Below are positions 50,149 through 50,461 of a DNA stretch of 64,000 nt, piece after piece. The stretch is from Candidatus Peregrinibacteria bacterium (GTDB taxonomy: Bacteria; Patescibacteriota; Gracilibacteria; UBA1369; LOWO2-01-FULL-3). The first letter of the stretch is position 1. Every line of letters begins with the position of its first letter. The notes under the pieces were generated by a model. That model saw nothing but the letters and a program-made list of their open reading frames with translations, had not been told where the DNA came from and made no database searches. Both the position numbers and the translations under genes were made by a program. Location of the stretch: NCBI GenBank assembly GCA_026395515.1, contig JAPLYN010000005.1, positions 1 through 64,000 on the forward strand. Reading direction: 5' to 3'.

Positions 50149-50287
50149 GCTTGGTGGACGATGAGAAGCAGCGTGCACGGGCACCATCCGAAGGATGGTC
50201 GTGCTCTGACGGGGATCGAACCCGCATCCCTTAGGTGTTAAGCATAAGTGCTTTGCCGTTAAGCTACAGCCCCATGTTCCACCAAGC
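50149..50287 (-). ncRNA. tRNA-like element enclosed by a 10-bp inverted repeat
   Basis: On the minus strand the core 50202-50273 has a regular D-arm (GCTT/AAGC stem, AACGGCA loop) and a regular T-arm (loop TTCGATC), but only 4 of 7 acceptor pairs form, the anticodon arm is irregular (6-bp stem with a mismatch around CTTAACA), and no CCA follows. Perfect 10-base arms (50149-50158 and 50278-50287) enclose it and also a 7-bp hairpin (50183-50199). It is probably a decayed tRNA or a structured RNA with tRNA-like folds. A promoter and a terminated leader lie directly upstream. Confidence 0.45.
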
Positions 50288-50299
50288 TATTTAATCATA

Positions 50300-50373
50300 C
50301 AAAAAGATCCCTCTTTGTCGAAGGATCTAATGTAACACCCTAGAGAACTGTAACTTACAGCACTTATGCTTTC
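50300..50373 (-). ncRNA. Short terminated leader RNA upstream of the tRNA-like element
   Basis: A transcript from the promoter at 50380-50409 would start near 50373 and meet a Rho-independent terminator at 50301-50328, giving about 74 nt. It has two palindromes: AGCA-TAAG-TGCT and CTGTAA-G-TTACAG. Thirteen bases of the leader (50359-50371) are the exact reverse complement of 50240-50252 in the tRNA-like element, and 7 more (50333-50339) match 50234-50240. It may be a stand-alone RNA or an attenuator. Confidence 0.5.
50301..50328 (-). terminator. Terminator of the leader RNA
   Basis: Minus-strand stem AGATCC/GGATCT with an 12-base loop, followed by TTTTT. It stands between the promoter and the tRNA-like element. 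Confidence 0.7.
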
Positions 50374-50379
50374 GTCTAT

Positions 50380-50409
50380 ATTATAACAAAAGAAGCGATT
50401 TGAAATCAA
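50380..50409 (-). promoter_or_regulatory. Promoter of leader RNA and tRNA-like element
   Basis: Minus strand: TTGATT (50404-50409), 18-base spacer, TATAAT (50380-50385). It lies between the nth terminator and the leader. Confidence 0.65.
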
Positions 50410-50422
50410 TACTTATCACTGC

Positions 50423-50452
50423 AAAAAAGTGTTGAACAGGTCCGTTCAACAC
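50423..50452 (-). terminator. nth: Rho-independent terminator of nth
   Basis: A perfect 9-bp stem (50429-50437 with 50444-50452) with a 6-base loop, followed on the minus strand by TTTTTT. It lies 10 bases after the nth stop. Confidence 0.9.
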
Positions 50453-50461
50453 CACTCATTT

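Follow-up and report, generated by a model that had tools for sequence, protein, structure and literature searches.

Cognate pairs of an alanine-type tRNA-like RNA and an antisense RNA in Candidatus Peribacteria and their relatives

What is a tRNA-like element doing behind a terminated RNA that is complementary to it? Such an arrangement lies on the minus strand at positions 50149-50409 of the window, by which we mean the whole 64,000-nt stretch of DNA from a Candidatus Peregrinibacteria bacterium that was analysed, and the preliminary description had offered a choice between an attenuator-controlled or self-pairing RNA that mimics tRNA and a decaying tRNA with a regulatory leader. We find that the locus probably holds two separate transcription units, one for a terminated small RNA (sRNA) and one for a tRNA-like RNA (TLS), each with a predicted promoter.

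The sRNA promoter (-35 TTGATT, 50404-50409; -10 TATAAT, 50380-50385; 18-nt spacer, 10/12 match to the consensus) and the leader with its perfect terminator had been described before, and the promoter and terminator scans return both at coordinates that agree nearly to the base. Judged from the promoter spacing, which places the 5' end, from the terminator and from aligned homologues, the antisense sRNA would be about 73-75 nt long (50301-50373), ending in a strong intrinsic terminator of hairpin and U-run (50301-50328). The loop of this terminator contains the -35 element (TCGACA, 50316-50321) of a predicted TLS promoter, whose -10 element (TATGAT, 50294-50299) follows after a 16-nt spacer, again with a 10/12 match; three promoter-like sites were found in the scan, against 0.8 expected. 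Since the TLS has a promoter of its own, with its -35 element in the terminator loop, the upstream RNA is probably a separate sRNA and not, as had been supposed, the 5' leader of the tRNA-like element. Just upstream of the sRNA promoter, and like all of these features on the minus strand, lies a terminator-like hairpin of the GTTGAAC/GTTCAAC type, GGTGTTGAAC..GTTCAACACTTTTTT (50428-50453); similar hairpins precede the non-syntenic units L005, L007, L008, L010 and L016 of the window type, here called class 1. By inspection, the genes flanking the locus look unlike mobile elements and resemble unrelated housekeeping genes; synteny extends to L010 of another genus, which has the same neighbours on both sides; flanks of this type, together with the synteny, suggest that inheritance has been vertical rather than mobile.

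The TLS extends from G1 to A76 (50152-50273, minus strand), a 47-nt insert included. Its score with the Rfam tRNA model RF00005 is 32.6 bits, just above the cut-off of 29, whereas the two ordinary tRNAs of the window score 63.5 and 65.9 bits; ARAGORN makes no tRNA call for the TLS. The fold comprises a D arm (50250-50264), an anticodon arm with an internal mismatch (CTTATG-CTTAACA-CCTAAG, 50230-50248) and a T arm (50209-50225), and the anticodon loop (50236-50242) presents the nominal anticodon UAA, the close homologue L005 being read by ARAGORN as Leu(taa). The acceptor had been described as mismatched, with four of seven pairs, and without CCA. The stem is indeed interrupted, but it looks mismatched because the insert, two hairpins at 50159-50205, stands in place of nucleotide 69; G1-C72, G2-C71, G3-U70, A73 and an encoded CCA are all retained across it. 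The statement on CCA was mistaken, as UCC-A-CCA (U70, C71, C72, A73, CCA) is encoded at 50152-50158. The enclosing 10-base inverted arms hold good at 50278-50287 (GCTTGGTGGA, the 5' arm) and 50149-50158 (TCCACCAAGC, the 3' arm, which includes UCC-A-CCA); the 5' arm forms pairs with the CCA end, in competition with the acceptor stem.

The insert is common to four other loci of the genus (L002, 1501-1560; L016, ~1602-1648; L018, ~1520-1565; L020, ~1520-1566); in the five loci, which belong to both TLS classes, 45-50 nt with covarying stems precede UCCACCA. The impression is of a module that spreads or has been gene-converted. A spliced intron was considered and rejected, since excision would leave a 4-69 mismatch and the insert consists of two covarying hairpins that form a module. 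The tmRNA gene is followed, about 1.1 kb downstream, by L002 (G000:C4), in which T arm, insert and CCACCA occur without a recognisable 5' half; this element may be a TLS fragment or an unusual member of the family.

Complementarity between the two RNAs had been reported as 13 leader bases matching the element exactly. That match stands (sRNA 50359-50371, TLS 50240-50252), but it is incomplete, being the first of three segments, A, B and C, all on the minus strand. Segment A faces the 5' strand of the anticodon arm; segment B (50348-50358) complements the acceptor end and the D arm, with 14 pairs to the latter in the window copy when G-U is counted; segment C (50333-50345) complements the anticodon loop and the 3' strand of the anticodon arm, a pairing that is perfect over 7 nt in the window (TAACACC/GGTGTTA) and reaches 14 in relatives. 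The window copy has kept the 13 exact pairs of segment A and its promoters, but its acceptor is interrupted and part of segment C lies out of register. Because the insert divides the acceptor stem and segment C pairs over only ~7 nt, this copy may be impaired, and the insert may lower the activity of the copy that holds it.

The same sRNA/TLS pair is found with an intact acceptor stem in relatives of the same order, Candidatus Peribacteria. Homologues were recovered by DNA search in 12 of 60 relatives, and a later search using one of these as query gave matches in 18 of the 89 genomes of the order. Most relatives have a cloverleaf with a 7-bp acceptor stem and CCA, unlike the window copy with its insert; the stem is GGGGCTG/CAGCTCC-ACCA or near it, and RF00005 scores reach 58.6 bits. 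The tRNA-Ala genes of the host (UGC, GGC) have this very acceptor (GGGGCTG/CAGCTCC-A), and G3-U70 is present in 10/11 class-1 TLSs. The nominal anticodons vary (Leu UAA, Ser CGA, Thr UGU or CGU and Asp GUC), and the anticodon stem has a recurrent internal mismatch. Given that the host genome encodes 39 other tRNAs, among them a Leu(taa) and two tRNA-Ala, the TLS is not needed for decoding, and the possibility of a required decoding tRNA was rejected on the strength of this full set. One locus, L013 (G058), encodes a tRNA of 71.2 bits with anticodon GUC and G3-C70 next to a convergent sRNA of class-1 type, and possibly links ordinary tRNA to class 1. Orphan sRNAs of class-1 type, with promoter and terminator and no adjacent TLS, occur in L008 (~1670-1790), L017 (~370-480) and L197 (~1500-1580); their target may be a TLS elsewhere. 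The copies in L008 and L035 look damaged.

A larger family, class 2, was first met as unexpected matches of ~70 nt to the tmRNA model RF00023, with scores up to 47 bits. A covariance model, R1, was built from 19 class-2 elements (its E-values are rough) and finds matches in 43 of the 89 genomes of the order, with up to six class-2 matches per genome; in a phylum-wide sample, 10 of 287 genomes have matches, five of these outside the order, and so do 6/22 genomes of one other family. Class-2 TLSs have a tiny D arm, no variable loop and a 9-bp anticodon arm with a closed 7-nt loop. Among 99 elements, G3-U70 and A73 are each kept in 98, 79 end in ACCA, and changes on both sides are seen in 19 of the 24 pairs of the fold. 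The 98 loops counted show U33 (89), a purine at 35 (84), A38 (93) and C37 (66), so that of the canonical decoding marks, U33 and a purine at 37, the second is displaced by a prevailing C37. Pairing of the flanks over the CCA end, as in the outer stem of the window, scores 18.3 for own flanks against 11.7 for swapped ones and exceeds the swapped 95th percentile in 59/98. Upstream of the class-2 TLSs of the genus (for example in L035, L037 and L045) there is a conserved AT-rich block ending TTTGGTTGNTATAAC, without a clear -35 element, which is perhaps a special promoter. No match at the gathering score of Rfam (release 15) was obtained for the 18 class-2 loci tested, and class 1 matches tRNA only. 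A scan of viral contigs with the class-2 pattern gave no matches, nor did a distant blastn search of the window unit against phages and plasmids.

If the complementarity were fortuitous it should extend to exchanged partners. The longest complementary run averages 11.6 for own pairs and 7.1 for swapped pairs in class 1, and 12.2 against 5.8 in class 2, where the duplex energy is -42 kcal/mol for own and -27 kcal/mol for swapped pairs; for class 1 cofold energies are a rough guide, as cofolding cannot represent the crossed pairing of segments A and C. In a class-1 alignment not fitted to structure, 91% of cells are paired over the 35 intermolecular pairs, against 32-40% when the alignment is slid. 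Compensatory changes occur in 21 of the 35, anticodon positions included, and none of 500 shuffles reaches such values. At column pair 46-148, an anticodon position, A-U is found in seven and U-A in four of the 11 class-1 sequences; this is a loop position, so the swap cannot be due to pairing in the stems of the TLS itself. The class-1 loci found later, L192, L194 and L195, repeat the segment order, L192 and L195 with exact complements of 8-12 nt. The antisense score averages 37.2 for TLSs, against 21.8 for 22 ordinary tRNAs and 22.3 for the swapped null. The complementarity is absent from swapped sRNA/TLS pairs, ordinary tRNAs and slid alignments, and it is not, on these comparisons of sequence, a product of chance; it is cognate-specific and kept by covariation, as in an antisense sRNA. 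The earlier suggestion of a self-pairing RNA that mimics tRNA is thereby supported, and extended to two RNAs with compensatory changes; both the leader complementarity and, in class 2, the outer stem are conserved in relatives.

The order and orientation of the two genes vary. Antisense segments were searched for within 260 bases on each side of the class-2 TLSs, with the 95th percentile of swapped flanks as threshold. A linked segment above the threshold and directed at the D/anticodon arm is present for 88 of the 99: downstream on the opposite strand (convergent) in 58, downstream on the same strand (tandem) in 18, and upstream on the opposite strand (divergent) in 12. No linked segment above the threshold was found for the other 11, three of which lie within ~60 bases of a contig end. 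In class 1 the sRNA precedes its partner on the same strand, except in L195, where it follows on that strand, and in L013, where it is convergent; this brings the arrangements to four across both classes. In loci inspected by eye, a promoter-like site precedes the antisense segment and a terminator follows it. Because only the pairing survives every rearrangement, we consider the pairing itself to be the shared feature. The antisense RNAs of L032, L040 and L039 (downstream region) also complement the acceptor/CCA end of the TLS, for example by TGGTGGAGCCG.

The pairs, their specificity and covariation, the alanine-type identity elements and the four arrangements can be read directly from the sequences. 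What they are for is a further step: the sRNA probably disables a TLS built to be charged with alanine, and we favour, with less certainty, an RNA-only module that resembles a toxin and its antitoxin. The TLS combines an alanine-type acceptor (G3-U70 and A73 as in host tRNA-Ala), a T loop and CCA with an anticodon that is no longer that of alanine; charging by AlaRS would follow from the identity elements G3-U70 and A73, which are present in class 2, in class 1 and, despite the insert, in the window copy. The sRNA is predicted to act as an antisense to its own partner's D arm, anticodon-arm 5' strand and anticodon loop. Pairing would nucleate at the U-turn-type anticodon loop, and YUNR-like U-turn loops are known from antisense targets; the 5' strand of the anticodon stem would then be displaced, a step probably eased in class 1 by the recurrent internal mismatch, and the D arm opened, and the unfolded TLS would be kept from charging or from the ribosome. 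With the sRNA scarce, the TLS would be freed, matured and alanylated. The free TLS might then have a harmful or a stress-time effect on translation, which is the least certain step; with C37 casting doubt on ordinary decoding, the TLS may miscode, jam or donate alanine. Paralogues would stay apart through the pair-specific sequence of the anticodon arm. Patchy presence, many orthogonal pairs and locally decayed copies (L035, L008) appear to resemble toxin-antitoxin families, and the traits observed, namely occurrence in 43/89 genomes and paralogous pairs that match far better on their own than when swapped, are consistent with such modules and unspecific to them; flanks that look like housekeeping genes and synteny across at least two genera are less typical of selfish modules.

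A more far-reaching version holds that the alanine-charged mimics cause alanine to be incorporated at codons for Thr, Ser, Arg, Ile or Leu, or jam these codons, once the private sRNA runs out, an RNA-only toxin-antitoxin or programmed miscoding system as old as the phylum, with many orthogonal pairs in each reduced genome. We regard this as possible and hold it tentatively; miscoding is disfavoured because the frequent C37 argues against efficient decoding. That same loop, together with the alanine identity, would suit a TLS that carries alanine to reactions outside the ribosome, such as the tailoring of cell wall, lipids or peptides, and is restrained by the sRNA; pseudo-tRNAs with non-translational roles are known (PMC3399842). 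Inspection revealed no conserved neighbouring enzyme, however, and several co-diversified pairs per genome with patchy presence would be odd for a carrier, which makes this rather unlikely. The pairing is reciprocal, so the roles might also be exchanged, the TLS being a decoy or sponge and the sRNA the true regulator, acting on mRNAs in trans until titrated; orphan sRNA copies (the second unit of L008, and L197) fit such a scheme, but it leaves the strict keeping of G3-U70, A73, CCA, the T loop and the L-shape features unexplained, and we think it a poor candidate.

The readings closest to the preliminary description fare worse. The order at the window locus, with the sRNA first, then its terminator and then the TLS, all on one strand, would suit cis-attenuation, in which the leader terminator governs read-through into the TLS and the nascent leader receives feedback from free TLS. 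Yet the TLS has its own promoter-like site, no anti-terminator was found by eye, and control in cis is excluded as the general mechanism by relatives whose sRNA lies downstream of the TLS or is transcribed convergently or divergently; for the same two reasons, the promoter-like site and the varied placement, the locus does not belong with transcription attenuators or T-boxes, and attenuation is very improbable. A decaying tRNA, with the complementarity a relic or an accident, draws on the weak tRNA score and interrupted acceptor of the window copy and on the damaged look of L008 and L035. It is contradicted for the family by the compensated intermolecular pairs, the covarying stems and a G3-U70 invariant across the phylum but for the exceptions counted above, and has next to no likelihood. 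We give as little credence to a two-piece, tmRNA-like ribosome rescue system with the TLS as alanyl tRNA domain and the sRNA as mRNA-like piece: RF00023 does score class-2 TLSs, and alanine identity and the lack of a variable loop are common to both, but a normal tmRNA is encoded in the same genome, no tag-like reading frame was noticed by eye in the sRNA, and pairing with the sRNA melts the anticodon arm. A TLS of ~70 nt with a closed 7-nt loop and no mRNA-like domain is not a member of the tmRNA family.

Our preferred reading, an sRNA that holds an alanine-type TLS in check, is assembled from parts of a known sort, tRNA mimicry and antisense sRNA; we found no described family whose TLS has a dedicated antisense RNA, and none in which pairs of this kind diversify. 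Nor did we find, in the open-access literature, a description of tRNA-like RNA or antisense control in Peregrinibacteria, Patescibacteria or CPR, which is not proof of novelty. Genome annotation hides the family because it is absent from Rfam release 15 and because ARAGORN either misses its members or reports odd tRNA-Leu, Ser or Thr genes. If confirmed, it would represent a compact, reprogrammable on/off switch for an alanyl tRNA-like RNA. It would also supply orthogonal RNA pairs of natural origin, and mistranslation in Patescibacteria might be programmed through it.

Among known RNAs, the nearest is tRNA-Ala (RF00005), with which the TLS has in common the GGGGCTG/CAGCTCC acceptor, G3-U70, A73, the T arm, the encoded CCA and, in class 1, the cloverleaf; the TLS differs in its non-alanine anticodons, recurrent anticodon-stem mismatch, C37, outer stem over the CCA and dedicated antisense sRNA, and class 2 further in its mini D arm and lack of a variable loop. 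With tmRNA (RF00023) it shares an alanine-type tRNA-like domain, a reduced D arm and the missing variable loop, whereas its length, closed loop and lack of an mRNA-like domain, and the coexistence of a normal tmRNA, set it apart. The Bacillus cereus pseudo-tRNA tRNA-Other is likewise a tRNA-like RNA thought to act outside translation (PMC3399842); it is a single gene, poorly charged with lysine and not known to have an antisense partner, in contrast to the diversified TLS family. A vertebrate tRNA-Thr with G4:U69 and a non-alanine anticodon is charged with alanine by AlaRS (PMC7337962), but it is a functional tRNA, subject to ThrRS proofreading and without an antisense RNA. T-box riboswitches are also RNAs that read an anticodon, and some class-2 sRNAs complement the CCA end as well; the pairing described here covers 12-20 bp rather than 3, there is no downstream gene, and the sRNA is often on the other strand. 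On the antisense side, CopA/CopT and hok/sok exert control through U-turn (YUNR) loops. The likeness lies in a loop where U33 is followed, two positions later, by a purine, in the helix opening that would follow, and in fast-diverging cognate pairs; the target here is a tRNA mimic and not an mRNA or replication primer, and the two genes are free in their arrangement and not always overlapping.
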